In this document: positions 24,228 to 48,510 of the stretch, one piece after another
Layout: each line of letters opens with the position of its first letter
How positions within the stretch are numbered: position 1 is the stretch's first letter
Origin: Crossiella sp. CA-258035
Lineage (GTDB): Bacteria; Actinomycetota; Actinomycetes; Mycobacteriales; Pseudonocardiaceae
Assembly (NCBI RefSeq): GCF_030064675.1
Contig: NZ_CP116413.1
Coordinates: forward strand, 1,211,001-1,275,000
Reading direction: 5' to 3'
DNA length: 64,000 bases
Translations under genes and position numbers: made by a program
The notes under the pieces: model-generated
What the model was told of the DNA's origin: nothing
The model's input: only the letters and a program-made list of their open reading frames with translations
Database searches by the model: none

Positions 24228-25142
24228 CTACGAACGGACTACCGCACCCGGCGACCGGACTGGACCACGCAGCACAAGCCGCAGCAACGCCACCCCCAGC
24301 ACCAGCCACAGCGGCGACCACAACCCCAGATCCCACCCCGCGTACCAGCGGGCCTCAGCCGAAGCCGTTCCGAACAAGGTCACCAGCGCCCCCGACACCC
24401 CGGTAACCCCACGCACGAACAGGAACGCGACCGCCAGCCAGGCGGGCCCCAGCAACAGCCACCGCGGCAGGCGCTCCCGCCACGAGGTGGCCAGCGCCAG
24501 GATCACCAGCACCCCGACCCCCGCGATCAGCACCGTCAGGATGTGCACCACCAGCGCCGTCGGGTTGTCCCCCAGCAACAACTCCCGGTCCGCCCCACCC
24601 AGCGGCGTCTCCGCCATCAGCACATCCGACCCCAGCGCCCAAGCCAGCTTCATCGCGCCATAGGGCACCGCACACGCCAGCGCCACCCAGGCCGCCCCCG
24701 GCAACACCGGCCGCCAGTACCGCACCACGAACCGCCACACCAGCCACGGCCACACCAGCACCACCAACGGCAACTGCACCCACCCGGTCCACACCCCGCG
24801 CACCGACAGCAGCACCACTCCCGCGGCCATGGCCGCCAGCGTCAACACCAGCGCACCGAGCACGACCCAGCGCGCCACCGGCCCCCAGCCCCGCAAGGTC
24901 GCCAGCACAATCCCAGCGGCGAACACCCCCAGCCCGGCATTCCCCAGCTGCAACAGCCAGACCTCGCCGGAACCCCAGGCCGAGGAGTCCGCCCCAACCA
25001 TTCCGGGCAGGCCAACCCGGCCGATGGCCGCCATGTAGACCTTTTCGCCGGCGTAGAACAGCATCTGCGCCGCCACCACCAGCGCGGCCCAACGCTCCCA
25101 GCGCGTCCGATCCCGGTTCATGGCCACACCATGCACCGGCAC
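24228..25142 (-). CDS. Membrane protein of unknown function (7-8 helices)
   Basis: The protein has 304 residues from the GTG at 25142, where GGGAGG lies 11 nt upstream; the ATG at 25121 (MNRDRTRWERW) is the alternative. It has seven to eight hydrophobic helices and short loops, with Trp-rich segments (VWPWLVWRFVVRYWRP) and a charged C-terminal end. I recognise no family motif. It lies downstream of the first large structured element, and in the minus-strand direction that element would be in its leader or in the space before it. Confidence 0.7.
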   Translation of the reverse strand: MPVHGVAMNRDRTRWERWAALVVAAQMLFYAGEKVYMAAIGRVGLPGMVGADSSAWGSGEVWLLQLGNAGLGVFAAGIVLATLRGWGPVARWVVLGALVLTLAAMAAGVVLLSVRGVWTGWVQLPLVVLVWPWLVWRFVVRYWRPVLPGAAWVALACAVPYGAMKLAWALGSDVLMAETPLGGADRELLLGDNPTALVVHILTVLIAGVGVLVILALATSWRERLPRWLLLGPAWLAVAFLFVRGVTGVSGALVTLFGTASAEARWYAGWDLGLWSPLWLVLGVALLRLVLRGPVRSPGAVVRS

Positions 25143-25241
25143 TCGCCGAGCAGCCTCCCGATCACGAGGGATCGAACTCCCCCATGAGAGGGAAACCCCG
25201 GGCGCGGCGGGTCTTTGCCTTTGATCGCAACGGAGCGGCCG

Positions 25242-25828
25242 GTCTGGGTGGTTCTGCTTCGACGGCCTGGAAAAAACACACCAGCCCTGTCAAGCGCCCC
25301 ACGTTCCAGCCAACCGTCACAAACCGCTGGGACCGGGGCGCTTGACAGGGCTGGTTTGGTTTTGGAAGGCCGTCGAAGCAGAACCACCCAGACCCCGCGG
25401 AACCACCCACGCTGCTGAAAGCGCGCCAACACAAACTCGCACTGGTCTGCGACTCATCTCGCTGCCTTTGATCTTCCCCCCTGCTTTGATGGTCTGCCCG
25501 TCCGGCGAGGACATTCTTTTCGCTTTTAAAAAACCAAAAGAATGTCCTCGCCGGACGGGCAGACCCCCGGAGGGGTGTGACAAGTCAAAAGCCGGTCGAG
25601 CAGGTTGCGGGGCGGGGCAGGTTGCCGACTCAAGACCCAGCGTGCTCGCGACCCTCTCGTCTTCTCCGCACGACCTTCCGACAGCAAACCACATCTCTCC
25701 ACCCGGCCCCCGTCACGTTGGGCGGGGCGGGCGGCGGCAGGTTGCAGGGGCCGGGTGGAGAGATGCGGTCAGCAGTCTCCAGGCCGTACGGAGAAGACGA
25801 GAGGCCCGCTTTGTGGGTTTTCACCCCC
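25242..25828. repeat. Large structured intergenic element, copy 1 (three hairpins)
   Basis: Hairpin A has perfect 26-base arms (25242-25267/25368-25393), a 13x13 internal loop and perfect 20-base inner arms (25281-25300/25335-25354). Hairpin C has perfect 30-base arms (25491-25520/25536-25565). Hairpin B has 15-base outer arms (25654-25668/25789-25803) and 19-base inner arms (25692-25710/25747-25765). The last bases (25800-25828, GAGAGGCCCGCTTTGTGGG then TTTTCACCCC) are conserved in copy 2 and reach the stop codon of the oligopeptidase gene. Copy 2 is at 46087-46649. I see no protein-coding gene in 25143-25820. Whether it acts as RNA or as DNA is unknown. Confidence 0.85.
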
Positions 25829-27824
25829 GGGGCATCAGCGTGATCCCCAGCTCCCGCATGACGAAGGCCAGCCATTCCGCCTGCAACTCAGCCGCGATCC
25901 GGGGATCCAAACTCCCGTGCCCCACCGCCGTCCACACCCGCAGCAGCACCGGATGCGCGCTGCTGCTCGCCTCCCGCAGCGCGGCCACGAACCGCCGGGC
26001 CTGCTGTGGCGGGCAGCCGATGTCGCTGTTGCCCACCACCACGAACACCGCCGGATACCGCACCCCGGGCCGGATGTTCTGGCACGGCGAGTACCGGGCC
26101 ATCACCGCCGCGTCCGCCGGGTCCGCTGGGTTGCCGTAGTCCAGTTCGTACACCGAGCGGATCATCTCCGCGCCCGGGCCGTCGGGCACCGGGGTGAGCA
26201 CGTCCAGTACCGGCATGGTTGGCACCACCGCTCGCCACAGCTCGGGCTGCTGGGTCACTGCCACGCCAGCGAGTAGGCCGCCGTTCGAGGAGCCTTGGAA
26301 GGCAAGGGTTTCTGGGGTCGCGGTGCCTTGGCGGACCAGGTCCTCGGCGACCGCGTGGAGGTCGTCGAAGGTGTTCTGCTTGTGCTGGCGGCGGGCCGAC
26401 TCGTACCACTCGCGGCCGTATTCGCTGCCGCCGCGCAGGTTCGCGTGCACGTAGATCCCGCCTGAGCGCAGCCACGGGGTCAACGCGCCCAGAAACGTTG
26501 GCAGCTTGGGGATGTTGAAGCCGCCGTAGGCACTCACCAGGGTCGGCTGAGCCTCGGTGCGGTTCAGGTCGGTGCGGGCCAGCAGGTAGTACGGGACCCG
26601 GGTGCCGTCGGCTGAGGTGGCGAAGTGCTGTTCGACGGTGATGTCGTCCAGGGAGTCGCCCTGTGCCAGCACATCCAGCGCACCGGTCTCGGGGTGCAGC
26701 TCGTAGGTGGTGTCGCTGGTGGTGAAACTGCTTGCGCTGAAAGCGAAAGCCTCCGTGCCGGTGGGCAGGCGGGACAGTATGGTCAGCTGCATGCTGGCGC
26801 TGGCCAACGGCAACGCGGCCGTCGCCACCGGTGCGCCGTCCAGGGTGTAGCTGCGGATGTCCAGGGACACGTCGTTCAGCGCGGTCACCACCAGGTGCTC
26901 GCCCAGCCGGTACAGGCTGCGCAGCACCAGGTCGCTCGCTGGGATCAGCTCCTGCCAGGTGGCCGGGTCGGTCGAGGTCGCCACCGGGATGCGGACCACT
27001 CGGCCGCGCGGGGTGTCGGTGCTGATCGCGACATAGGTCTGCTCGTCCAGCCAGTCGCCGTGGAGTTCGCCGTGGAAGTCCTCGGGCGCGAAGCGGCGGA
27101 ACTCGCCGGTGGCGGTGTCGGCGATCATTGTGGCCAGGTGCTCGTGCGGTGCGGTGACCGCCAGCACCCGGCCGCCGCCGGGGGAGACCTGGGGCACCAC
27201 GGACAGCGAGGTCGGCGGGATGCCGGGCACCGCCCAGGTCGCCTCCTGGCCGCCGGTCACCGGGACGAACCGGAGGGTGTGCCCGCCGGTCTCGCCGCGT
27301 CCGGCCAGGAAGAAGCCGGTGCTGTCCGGCAGCCAGGCCGGGCGGATCAGGTTGCCCTGCATCGCGGGCACTGCCACCGGCAGTCGCGCGCCGGAGTCCA
27401 CCTCGACCACCAGGAACTGGCCGAACGGGTCCCCGCCCGCCGCCGCGCTGAAGGCCAGCAGGCGGCCGTCGGGGCTGGGCTCCGGGTAGATCAGCGTGGT
27501 GGCCCGGTCGTCGCCGCGCTCGGCGGTCAGCGCGGCCGCGTCCACCAGCACCTGGCCCGGCGCGTCCCGGTCCTCGGCCACCCGGATGGCCTGCGCGGTG
27601 CCGTCCTCGTTGCGGTCCAGCCAGAACCAGCGGCCGGCCACCTTCCGCCGGTCGGCCAGCGCCCCGGCCAGCTGACCGGCCATCAGCGGGGCGATCTCCT
27701 CGACCAGCTCGGCGAAGCCCGGGAAGTCCCGCGCCGCCCCCATTGCCTTGCTGACCTGCTGTTCCTGCCAGGCCCGCACCTCGTCCGTGTCCGCGTTCAG
27801 CCATGTATAGGCGTCCGTGGTCAC
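25821..27824 (-). CDS. Prolyl oligopeptidase family serine peptidase (S9)
   Basis: This 667-residue cytoplasmic-type protein (no signal peptide) has an N-terminal beta-propeller and a C-terminal alpha/beta-hydrolase domain. The catalytic Ser is in FQGSSNGGLLAG, the Asp in VVGNSDIGCPPQQA and the His in AVGHGSLD. RGGSEYGREWY is the usual S9A segment before the nucleophile. It cleaves short peptides, usually after Pro, although the specificity here is not certain. It starts at a GTG and is divergent from a TetR regulator gene 69 bp away, so that regulator may control it. Its stop codon lies inside the conserved edge of structured element copy 1. Confidence 0.92.
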   Translation of the reverse strand: MTTDAYTWLNADTDEVRAWQEQQVSKAMGAARDFPGFAELVEEIAPLMAGQLAGALADRRKVAGRWFWLDRNEDGTAQAIRVAEDRDAPGQVLVDAAALTAERGDDRATTLIYPEPSPDGRLLAFSAAAGGDPFGQFLVVEVDSGARLPVAVPAMQGNLIRPAWLPDSTGFFLAGRGETGGHTLRFVPVTGGQEATWAVPGIPPTSLSVVPQVSPGGGRVLAVTAPHEHLATMIADTATGEFRRFAPEDFHGELHGDWLDEQTYVAISTDTPRGRVVRIPVATSTDPATWQELIPASDLVLRSLYRLGEHLVVTALNDVSLDIRSYTLDGAPVATAALPLASASMQLTILSRLPTGTEAFAFSASSFTTSDTTYELHPETGALDVLAQGDSLDDITVEQHFATSADGTRVPYYLLARTDLNRTEAQPTLVSAYGGFNIPKLPTFLGALTPWLRSGGIYVHANLRGGSEYGREWYESARRQHKQNTFDDLHAVAEDLVRQGTATPETLAFQGSSNGGLLAGVAVTQQPELWRAVVPTMPVLDVLTPVPDGPGAEMIRSVYELDYGNPADPADAAVMARYSPCQNIRPGVRYPAVFVVVGNSDIGCPPQQARRFVAALREASSSAHPVLLRVWTAVGHGSLDPRIAAELQAEWLAFVMRELGITLMPRG

Positions 27825-37088: not shown

Positions 37089-37148
37089 GGGAGGCTCCTG
37101 TGGTCGAGGCGTCCACGGGCATGCGGACGCCGCTGGCGAGCCTCCCCG

Positions 37149-37334
37149 CTCTGTCATGGGACCTGAGAGCTTCCCCGCGCGAACACGGGTTGCACCGTGG
37201 GTGAGGTGGGCGAACCCACCTGCTTTCCAGAGTCGCCTCGCTCGAACGGTGACGTTGCCTGAGAGTTTCCGGGGAGAGGTTGCTCCTTCGGCGTCCCGTG
37301 CGTGCTGCGTGCCGGGATCTCTCCCGCCCGAGCT
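37149..37334 (-). ncRNA. Tandem glycine riboswitch
   Basis: On the minus strand the leader of gcvT reads, in order, GGGCGGGAGAGATC, then CCGAAGGAGCAACC, then CCCGGAAACTCTCAGGCA, which is the complete first aptamer. A short linker and a second aptamer (CGACTCTGGAAAG, a GGTGGGTTCGCCCACC stem, CACGGTGCAACC, AAGCTCTCAGG, GACAGAG) follow. This is the classic two-aptamer glycine riboswitch that turns on glycine cleavage genes. Confidence 0.95.
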
Positions 37335-37389
37335 CAAACGGCCGATATGCGGTTGTGCCGCGAACCTTCCGGGACAGTCGAGGGGTCTG

Positions 37390-45946: not shown

Positions 45947-46086
45947 GATGCCTCCCGGATGCGCTGCGCCGACGTGCAGCGTGACACCGGGTCCACGGTC
46001 GCGCCGGACCGCACCGCGCTTTCCACCCCGAAGGGTGAGCTGCCGAGGAACCAGCGACGGGGTGGCTTTTCGAAAACCTGTCCGAA

Positions 46087-46649
46087 GTCTTGAGGTTCCC
46101 CATGCCCGTCAACCTGGAGACATCGCACCACATCCCAGCGAGCAGACGCTCACAGCAACCGCCGCCAAAGCCACGCCACGCAACGGCGGCTGCTCGCTGG
46201 GATGTGGTTCGATTTCGGAAGGTTGACGGGCATGGGGAACCTCAAGACCTGCCTGCGTCTCTGCCTTTGACTTTGATTTTCCCCCCCATGCTTTGATTCC
46301 TGCCCGTCCGGCGAGGACGCTCTTGATTTTGATCTTCGCCTGAAACCCCGAAGATCAAAAGAATGTCCTCGCCGGACGGGCAGACCACCGGAGGGGTGGG
46401 ACAAGTCAAAAGCCGGGACAAGCAGGTTGCGGGGCTGAGCAGGCTGCCGGGGCCGGTTCCAGCGTGCTCGCGGGCCTCTCGTCTTCTCCACACGGCCTTC
46501 CGACAGCGAACCACATCCCGCCGAGCAGCCGCCGTCACGCTGCTTTGTCTTGGCGGCGGCGCCTGTGAGCGTCTGCTCGGCGGGATGCGGTGCGCGGTCT
46601 CCAGGCCGTACGGAGAAGACGAGAGGCCCGCTTTGTGGGTTTTCACCCC
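46087..46649. repeat. Large structured intergenic element, copy 2 (three hairpins)
   Basis: Hairpin A has perfect 29-base arms (46087-46115/46220-46248), an 11x11 internal loop and 19-base inner arms (46127-46145/46190-46208). Hairpin C has 19-base arms (46300-46318/46365-46383) and a 12-base upper stem (46327-46338/46349-46360). Hairpin B has 15-base outer arms (46475-46489/46612-46626) and 15-base inner arms (46514-46528/46573-46587). The order, spacing and right-hand edge match copy 1 at 25242-25828. The stretch 45947-46086 is the probable promoter of the DUF1906 gene and holds a small hairpin (46023-46065). No coding gene is seen. Confidence 0.85.
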
Positions 46650-46671
46650 AAGCCCCCGATCCCGGGCCTCG

Positions 46672-48510
46672 CTAGAAGTTCGACAGCACCTGGGCCAGCA
46701 CCTTCTCCAGCGACCTCGGATCCTGCGAGTCGTAAGCCTTCGCCCGCGAAGCCCGCGCGATCTGTTCCAGCACGCGCAAATCGCTGCTCTGCCCATACGC
46801 GATTGGGAAAACCCGCACCGACCGCTCCGGGCTGTACTGCCGCAGATCCGCCACCAGGCTCTCCAGGTTCTCGTCCTCCGGGTACCGGTTCGCGCCGTCG
46901 CTCAGCAGCACCACCGCGTTGATCCGTTTCGGGTCCAGGTTCTGCCGCAGTTCCTTCTGCACCTGGCGGATCGTCGCGTACAGCGCCGTGTCTCCTTGCG
47001 CGGTCAGCTTGTCCACCTGCGTCCGGTACCTCGGCAGCACCGAGGACACCGGCCCCGGTTCCACCAAGACCCGCCAGGGCGTGGACTCCGAAACGCTGGG
47101 TGAGCTGAAGGTCCACAAACCCAGCCTGTCGTCCGGTGCCAGGTTGTCCAGGGCCGCGCCGCTTGCTGCTGCCTTGGCTGCGTCCAGGCGGGTGGGGCCG
47201 CCGGGGATGGCGGGTTCGGCCATGGAGCCGGAGACGTCGATGACCATCAGGACGTTGGCGCGTTTGCGGTGTTCGCGCCAGGCTTCGGGGAGTTTGGCGA
47301 GTACCGGGCCGGACGGGGTGCGGATGAGTTTGAGCTCGCGGTCGGGCAGGATTCCTTTCTCCTTGCGGAGTTCCGGGCCTGCCTTGCCTTCGGCGTCGCG
47401 GAAGCCGATGGCGGTGAAGCGGTCCTGTTTGCTCACCAGGAATGCCTGGAAGTCCTTGGCTATCTCCTTGCGCACGGGGTCGGCGTCCGGCCAGTCGAGC
47501 ACCAGGTACGGGTTGTCCGACATCAGGGTGCCGTCGTTGGGGTAGACCGCGACCAGGGGGACCTTGGGCGGGGTGGGTTTGCCCTCGGAGCGGCCCTCGG
47601 GCTGGCCCCGGTTGAAGTCGACGATGGACTTCTCCTCCACCGTCACCGCGCTGATGTAGTCCAGGCCGCTCTCGTTGCGGCCCCGGCCCGCCTCGTACAG
47701 GTTCTGCAGGAAGGTCAGCGTGGTCTCGCCGTAGTGCACGACGCTGTTCTCCACGCCCCGGACGTAGTTCACCGCCTTGGCGTCGGCCAGGTCGGCCTCG
47801 GTCAGGTCGTCCGAGCGGCCGGTGCCGGCGAAGAAGGTGGCGACCGTGGCGTGCAGGCCCGAGGTGGACAGGTTCGGGTTGGTCTTGCCCAGGCGGAAGG
47901 CGCCCCACTCCGGGTGGCCGTACTTGGCCCAGCCCTCCGGGTTCTGCGCCAGCTCCAGCAGGGTGCGCCAGCCGATCGGCTGCTCCGGCCAGCCCAGCGC
48001 CTTCGCCATCGGCTCCGGCATGCCGACCACCAGCGGGGTCTTGGCCAGGCTCACCGCGTCCCGGTCGGCGGTCAGGGAGACGCCGGTCGGCTTGTCCTGG
48101 CAGCGCAGGTGGCGTTGCTGGGCGATCTTGAGCCAGGTGGTGGCCGCCGGGGTCCAGGCGTCCGGGCGGGCCTCGCCCATCTGCTGGGCGTGCCAGCCGC
48201 AGGCCATCGCGTCCACCGAGCCGCCGCTGCCCAGCGCGGAGGAGTTGACCGTCCTGGCCGCCCCGCACCTGTCCCGGACCGGGCGCCGGGCCGCGCCGTA
48301 CTCCTTGGCCAGCTCGCTCATCAGGTCGCCCTTCTCCGGCGACACCACGACCAGGATCTCCACCCGCTCCCCGGCGCACTGCGCGGGCGCCGGTGGCCCG
48401 CCGGGGGTCAGACCGGGCAGCAGCACCGCCAGCAGCAACACCGCGCCGAGCACGGCCAGCCCGATGAACGGCCACCGCAGCCTCCGCAGCAGCAGCCCGT
48501 CTCCCGCCAT
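46672..48510 (-). CDS. Membrane-anchored solute-binding/VWA domain protein
   Basis: The protein has 612 residues from the ATG at 48510 (AGGGGG 7 nt upstream). One N-terminal membrane helix (WPFIGLAVLGAVLLLAVLLP) is followed by a type 2 periplasmic-binding-like domain (EILVVVSPEKGDLMSELAKEY, TSGLHATVATFF). A C-terminal VWA domain has a complete MIDAS (DVSGSM near residue 425, then TFSS and LSDGANRYPED). Both domains should face outward. Such fused proteins are common in actinobacteria but their role is unknown; metal-dependent protein binding is expected from the MIDAS. Confidence 0.88.
   Translation of the reverse strand: MAGDGLLLRRLRWPFIGLAVLGAVLLLAVLLPGLTPGGPPAPAQCAGERVEILVVVSPEKGDLMSELAKEYGAARRPVRDRCGAARTVNSSALGSGGSVDAMACGWHAQQMGEARPDAWTPAATTWLKIAQQRHLRCQDKPTGVSLTADRDAVSLAKTPLVVGMPEPMAKALGWPEQPIGWRTLLELAQNPEGWAKYGHPEWGAFRLGKTNPNLSTSGLHATVATFFAGTGRSDDLTEADLADAKAVNYVRGVENSVVHYGETTLTFLQNLYEAGRGRNESGLDYISAVTVEEKSIVDFNRGQPEGRSEGKPTPPKVPLVAVYPNDGTLMSDNPYLVLDWPDADPVRKEIAKDFQAFLVSKQDRFTAIGFRDAEGKAGPELRKEKGILPDRELKLIRTPSGPVLAKLPEAWREHRKRANVLMVIDVSGSMAEPAIPGGPTRLDAAKAAASGAALDNLAPDDRLGLWTFSSPSVSESTPWRVLVEPGPVSSVLPRYRTQVDKLTAQGDTALYATIRQVQKELRQNLDPKRINAVVLLSDGANRYPEDENLESLVADLRQYSPERSVRVFPIAYGQSSDLRVLEQIARASRAKAYDSQDPRSLEKVLAQVLSNF

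Follow-up and report, generated by a model that had tools for sequence, protein, structure and literature searches.

The window analysed in the present study is a stretch of 64,000 nucleotides from Crossiella sp. CA-258035 (contig NZ_CP116413.1), the genome of which (G000) is 9.17 Mb in size, and it contains two copies of an intergenic element composed of three hairpins. The hairpins lie in the same order, A, C and B, in both copies, at the positions given by a first-pass annotation made from the letters alone (Table 1). Copy 1 is located between two minus-strand genes, one for a DUF3995 protein (24228-25142) and one with Peptidase_S9 domains (25821-27824); the product of the latter ends in PRG-stop, and that of the corresponding gene in the congener G002 in PR-stop, as read by eye from an alignment. 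Copy 2 is neighboured by an Rv2525c-like gene and a VWA-domain gene. A search of the window against Rfam detected two glycine aptamers elsewhere, arranged as a tandem glycine riboswitch at 37141-37336 on the minus strand and over the gathering score, and nothing at the gathering score over either copy, in agreement with the earlier statement that the hairpins belong to no named RNA family.

Table 1. Features of the two hairpin elements in the window.
Feature	Position	Strand	Details	Basis
Entire copy 1 element (hairpin A of type A1, C, B)	25200-25828	+	left end approximate	family matches, empty orthologous sites
Hairpin A, copy 1, unit reads on +	25241-25394	+	outer arms ~25241-25268/25367-25394; inner stem ~25280-25300/25335-25355; arms 25241-25300/25335-25394, 92% complementary	
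a'' of copy 1	25479-25495	+	imperfect third direct copy of the outer arm, immediately 5' of the core	sequence reading
Hairpin C, copy 1			arms 25464-25527/25529-25592, 77% complementary	
Core on + within hairpin C, copy 1	25496-25512	+	GCCCGTCCGGCGAGGAC; stem GTCC/GGAC, loop GGCGA	G000:C1:1236496-1236512
Core on - within hairpin C, copy 1	25544-25560	-	part of the B unit	sequence reading
Hairpin B, copy 1, unit reads on -	25648-25809	-	arms 25648-25710/25747-25809, 83% complementary	inverted-repeat detection, pairing drawing, alignment A2
End of the copy 1 element	25816-25828	-	GGGGTGAAAACCC; TGA inside is the stop codon of gene 25821-27824(-)	sequence, Peptidase_S9 domains
Entire copy 2 element (hairpin A of type A2, C, B)	46058-46649	+	left end approximate	family match
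Hairpin A, copy 2, unit reads on +	46087-46248	+	arms 46087-46149/46186-46248, 90% complementary	inverted-repeat detection, pairing drawing
Hairpin C, copy 2			arms 46300-46324/46359-46383, 92% complementary	
Core on +, copy 2	46302-46318	+		G000:C1:1257302-1257318
Core on -, copy 2	46365-46381	-		sequence reading
Hairpin B, copy 2, unit reads on -	46470-46631	-	arms 46470-46532/46569-46631, 86% complementary	inverted-repeat detection, pairing drawing, alignment A2

Each element consists of two inverted units, the A unit on the plus strand and the B unit on the minus strand, and hairpin C is formed by their two 17-nt cores, which face each other with long hairpins of inverted polarity on either side. 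A unit of approximately 230 nt reads as outer stem, internal loop, inner stem, loop, spacer (approximately 40-110 nt in most units), a'' (which repeats the 5' arm of the outer stem imperfectly), the core stem-loop GUCC-GGCGA-GGAC and a pyrimidine-rich tract. In a test of 33 non-redundant units, including three from Crossiella (L106 twice and L111), a'' matched the outer arm of its own unit at 10.8 of 15 positions and those of other units at 9.3, compared with 8.0 after shuffling, and none of 5000 permutations was as high. Units without a hairpin also exist (e.g., L191 and L192), as do single units with largely different stems in other genera. The motif CTT(T)(T)GA immediately followed the core in 38/117 cases, versus 3.8 in shuffled sequences, but was dropped since a far interval also contained it in 16/117.

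The stem lengths given in the first-pass annotation held for hairpin A of copy 2 (outer 29 bp, inner 19 bp), while those of copy 1 were drawn as 28 and 21 bp rather than 26 and 20 bp. The internal loop of this hairpin, previously described as symmetric, was found to be partly paired instead, with a GGA/GGA mismatch in most of the drawn copies, and both of its sides fold into small hairpins in one relative. The sequence type of hairpin A does differ between copies 1 and 2; however, the difference, which had been attributed to compensatory change, is partly the result of module exchange because, within copy 2, the A region is an inverted match to the B region (46113-46222 and 46496-46605, 82%).

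Rather than a pair, copies 1 and 2 are members of a dispersed family. Copy 1 as the query gave 77 matches in G000, 22 of which were strong (E of 5e-50 or better, the weakest spanning 233 of 588 nt), and many start at position 219 of copy 1 because they carry the other type of hairpin A; copy 2 as the query added four partial places (6529609, 2927212, 6749571-6749779 and 2954041). At least 31 long matches were present in G002 among the best 40 candidates scored, and the copies of congeners are approximately 72-81% alike to copies 1 and 2. According to their coordinates, most G000 copies point in the same direction relative to the presumed origin (contig position 0), which gene orientation could explain. 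A different short repeat (GTGTTGGCCGTTGTNGTACG and its complement) forms arrays next to many elements, commonly just 3' of stop codons (L137-L165; flanks of L004, L008 and L011).

The site of copy 1 is empty in the three congeners G001, G002 and G003, in which gaps of 25, 41 and 117 bp correspond to 633, 648 and 1149 bp in G000. The site of copy 2 is occupied in the same orientation in G002 (G002:C1:2371716-2372946, corresponding to window positions 46058-47273, beside the orthologous left flank) and holds other DNA of 2-3 kb in G001 and G003. Further empty sites, with flanks 63-87 bp apart, were found for L003 (G001 and G002), L015 (G002) and L018 (G001). When 22 flank pairs were inspected by eye in G103, a genome of the same species, no site was clearly empty and no recent movement was seen: in ten pairs the gap was as large as at an occupied site, four had a changed gap (L009, L013, L015 and L022), five had flanks on different contigs, and three were represented by one flank only. 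The elements are thus old within the species, since G103 had no clearly empty site, and have undergone turnover between species, since some of the sites are empty in congeners. In the alignment of the empty sites of copy 1, the sole site aligned, the boundaries were too blurred for a target-site duplication to be called.

Exact matches to a 23-mer of the core were found in named records in 36 stretches, which were from Crossiella, Amycolatopsis and Solihabitans; since these records name the genera and Crossiella belongs to the Pseudonocardiaceae, we use the labels Crossiella-type and Pseudonocardiaceae. When two mismatches at most were allowed, 47 of the 297 genomes of the family, from 12 of its 46 genera, contained the core pattern, and the other 250 genomes did not. 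Beyond the family, the 17-nt core had one exact match in each of 7/395 genomes, compared with 2/396 for the reversed control, and 14 viral stretches matched it, mostly without the pyrimidine tract. In G187 and G307, pairs of cores are oriented outward at a distance of approximately 480-555 bp, which represents another arrangement of inverted pairs.

Compensatory change with conservation of structure, as proposed in the first-pass annotation, was observed both across genera and within the genus. Alignment A1 contained 33 of 40 candidate units, five Crossiella-type units and two of other length having been dropped, and its RNAalifold structure had 43 pairs, 28 of which had changed on both sides. 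In this alignment, 99.1% of cells were paired and the covariation score was 0.460, compared with 0.159 in shuffled alignments (0/500 as high) and 0.123 or less when slid, although the structure was derived from the same alignment that was scored, which favours it. The core stem also changes in step, one of its pairs being U-A in 30 rows and C-G in three, by which an invariant core was ruled out; the first pattern search had accepted two mismatches only. Alignment A2 contained 35 of 47 Crossiella-type B hairpins, one of which was taken on the other strand, and left out three wrong-strand duplicates and nine G001 and G002 copies (to keep it small). Hairpin B differs between copies and yet remains paired, as had been claimed: 98.2% of A2 cells were paired, with a score of 0.262 versus 0.117 in shuffled alignments (0/500 as high) and 0.046 or less when slid. 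The count of pairs changed on both sides was weaker in A2 (15 versus a shuffled mean of 12.7, with 42/500 shuffles as high). A column scan for an alternative in which the 3' arm pairs with a'' reached at best 66% of cells paired.

The units also have a polarity. On the strand that reads from the stop codon through the hairpin to the core, stem mismatches were G.T rather than A.C in a ratio, by column, of 15:3 in A1 and 16:4 in A2. When cells within the stems were counted, the ratio was 15:0 in Crossiella-type A hairpins, 57:0 in B hairpins and 36:1 in Crossiella sp. SN42, and it was 13:5 in AICE-type units and 19:7 in other genera, neither of the latter being significant by unit; all of these counts are non-independent because the copies are related. 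The A and B units are on opposite strands, and yet G.T predominates in each when it is read in its own polarity. As part of the joint explanation developed below, and with the same slightly less than even confidence, we suggest that the unit acts in single-stranded, folded form and has a fixed polarity, with which RNA and single-stranded DNA are both consistent.

A longer version of the unit was found in actinomycete integrative conjugative elements (AICEs). At L123, it is approximately 360 nt long and comprises the hairpin, the core, a second domain and a GC hairpin, followed by CTTGAACAAG and a conserved stretch rich in purines; a phage-integrase fragment lies between two direct copies of it at this locus. 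The long version was matched in 107/297 genomes and 31/46 genera of the family, tail-only and hairpin-only matches included. The position of the rolling-circle initiator RepSA matters more than its presence, because RepSA is present in 235/297 family genomes and co-occurrence at the genome level says little. Among the matches listed, which were 144 of 150 for the long version (six second pieces of listed elements being left out) and 150 for RepSA, 48 of the 144 long-version places had RepSA within 15 kb, downstream in 48/48 and on the same strand in 47/48, with a median distance of 8.2 kb in those 47; the 48 places correspond to 46 distinct RepSA, some places sharing one. Five stretches of 19 kb were inspected, and an FtsK-type protein was present in all five, RepSA within four (L278, L279, L281 and L282) and just outside the fifth (L280), and an integrase and GntR were also identified in L281.

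A CTTGA tail was located 3' of 29/34 AICE-type cores in a scan of the 3' side of the same strand, at 54-227 nt in 27, the match of L276 among these counts being a different CTTGA. The distance between the hairpin and the tail in L276 (1483-2972) is approximately 1.3 kb, and a second a''-core-like copy lies between them. At 11 loci with separate BLAST pieces, the hairpin and tail were on one strand and in the same order. When tail-only BLAST places were used as a test of prediction, 13/20 carried a perfect 4-bp NNNN-GGCGA-NNNN stem-loop 5' of the tail and 7/20 did not, compared with 0/20 on the other strand, 0.09/20 in shuffles and 6/496 pieces of the AICE stretches; in eight of the 13, the best hairpin clearly precedes the stem-loop. 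In a class-wide sample beyond the family, 3/394 genomes matched, all in one genus and in the tail region only. A RepSA-like match was downstream on the same strand at two of the three tail places outside the family and was absent at L309; a long hairpin upstream exceeded 20 shuffles in L306, and did not in L304 and L305.

The explanation that we tentatively prefer, with confidence a little short of even, is that the repeats are dispersed and apparently non-autonomous pairs of inverted units, related to a hairpin of AICEs that resembles a single-strand origin and lies beside the nick region of RepSA. In this reading, RepSA would nick its double-strand origin in the region of the CTTGA tail, and the hairpin-core unit would be the single-strand origin or a similar hairpin, formed by folding of the strand that is displaced. 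The copies in the chromosome would be related to the AICE unit and would have spread as inverted pairs into 3'-intergenic sites. CS-6 is a known motif of single-strand origins. The motif CTTG/A, although short, presumably resembles the nick site of phiX174. It also resembles, within the limits of its length, the nick site of pC194 as described in part of PMC5037232, and RSB is another single-strand-origin motif, which is named in a section of PMC5703833. The single-strand origin is generally just upstream of the double-strand origin (Khan, 2005, in a passage quoted in PMC5037232), and the AICE arrangement, in which the hairpin is directly 5' of CTTG/A on the would-be displaced strand, fits such a pair of neighbouring origins.

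The single-strand origins of rolling-circle plasmids (ssoA and others) are non-coding, functional in one orientation, rich in large single-strand secondary structure and generally just upstream of the double-strand origin, according to excerpts of PMC5037232 and PMC5703833, and the unit may resemble them in these respects; unlike them, the hairpin-core unit occurs within a single actinobacterial family, in AICEs as well as in chromosomes, and its role as an origin is putative. Searches in distant mode gave no match in plasmids (queries: copy 1 and the long AICE element) or in phages (query: the long AICE element only). In L269, an ORF of 243 aa (763-1494 on the plus strand, the element being on the minus strand) separates the hairpin-core unit from the CTTGA tail and runs in the opposite direction to the unit. 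This arrangement is similar to that of qacC between the single-strand and double-strand origins in the model outlined in part of PMC5037232, but L269 is in an AICE setting and any movement of cargo is putative at most. Since hairpin units of the same kind occupy a constant position in the rolling-circle mobile elements of these bacteria, the repeats may share ancestry with a part of the replication machinery of such an element. The chromosomal copies have no CTTGA tail, and the hairpin upstream of the tail at L301 of G103 is of the AICE kind, so that direct descent of the chromosomal copies from an AICE is at most putative.

A role as a single-strand origin leaves the preference of chromosomal units for stop codons unexplained, and this preference is better explained by an RNA element of gene 3' ends, in which transcripts would pass the stop codon into the hairpin, the core and the pyrimidine tract and be terminated or protected there, with inverted pairs serving convergent genes. 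An upstream gene was called for 37 of the 57 single units and was co-oriented in 32, with the stop codon 32-583 nt before the core (median of approximately 215 nt), and 26 of the 38 downstream gene calls were opposing; the 22 G000 loci comprised 11 convergent, eight tandem and three divergent cases, two of the latter (L004 and L016) appearing by eye to be miscalled. These counts rest on gene calls by a simple GC3 method, which weakens them as support for an RNA element. At least seven pyrimidines in 10 nt followed the core in 103 of 110 distinct units from family loci, compared with 5/20 chance core matches, i.e., those outside the family or on viral contigs, and this tract and the excess of G.T over A.C on the polarity of the Crossiella-type A and B units also favour such an RNA. 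However, the core is in our judgement more conserved than that of usual terminators, the family is patchy, with the core pattern lacking in most genomes, and the position of the unit in AICEs is constant with respect to both repSA and the CTTGA tail. We regard a 3'-end RNA as somewhat doubtful, though less so than the alternatives that follow.

The repeats may instead be palindromes of the REP/BIME or MITE kind, moved by some transposase and having no role in replication or as RNA, with the AICE copies also being insertions. This was the concern of the first-pass annotation, which asked whether the copies match a known transposable or REP-type element: the family is indeed dispersed, and its sites are occupied or empty among congeners, which comes close to that case, but it fits the definition of none of the named REP families compared, as these are described, and, as far as its blurred boundaries show, of none of the named MITE families compared. 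REP sequences with GTAG or CGTC tags and BIMEs are also dispersed extragenic palindromes, often in inverted pairs, and CGTC REP families have no dedicated transposase, as stated in passages of PMC3733652. Unlike the REP sequences associated with RAYT, which are 20-40 bp long, the present unit is approximately 230 nt and has no GTAG tag; unlike CGTC REP sequences, which have an 8-9 bp stem, a 4-5 nt loop and an unpaired tag in the description excerpted from PMC3733652, CGTC here overlaps a 4-bp stem. YPAL (approximately 168 bp, with filled and empty sites), RU-2 and other bacterial MITE-like repeats are similarly intergenic and palindromic, are mobile, as the present repeats may be (PMC2229807, in part), and differ from the hairpin-core elements in architecture, core and AICE association, with no target duplication established for the latter. 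A Y1 (RAYT-type) transposase was rejected as the mover, since PF01797 had no match in G000 or G003, though it matched in G001 and G002. The position of the palindromes at gene 3' ends, their inverted pairs, including the outward pairs in G187 and G307, their patchy distribution and the similarity of congener copies would suit insertions of this kind. On the other hand, neither a target-site duplication nor a terminal inverted repeat was established from the aligned empty sites of copy 1, and plain insertions would not be expected to show compensatory changes or a constant position and strand with respect to RepSA, which makes this account improbable.

A trans-acting or regulatory family of structured RNAs unrelated to mobile elements, toward which the first-pass annotation leaned, is in agreement with the strong covariation and with the result of Rfam over the copies; an Rfam search of ten loci of relatives, with E up to 1, gave three tRNAs above the cut-off and three sub-threshold hits, all in L272. 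Dispersal, empty sites in congeners and the association with AICEs argue against such a family, and we consider it very improbable. Among the matches listed, we found no account of the hairpin-core repeat family in the open-licence literature.

A bolder form of the preferred origin-hairpin explanation, which we consider unlikely, though not to the same degree as plain insertions, is that the hairpin of an AICE rolling-circle origin was domesticated in Pseudonocardiaceae chromosomes as a polar 3'-end element, in which structure would be kept by compensatory change, the GGCGA stem-loop would be recognised by a conserved factor, and two convergent genes would each be provided with a separate copy by an inverted pair. 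A relationship between the chromosomal repeats and the AICE unit would link a conspicuous family of intergenic repeats to a module that has a fixed place in the conjugative elements of actinomycetes and supply a testable candidate for the AICE origin region. It would also offer many natural experiments on the strand-specific evolution of structure after a hairpin settles in chromosomes.
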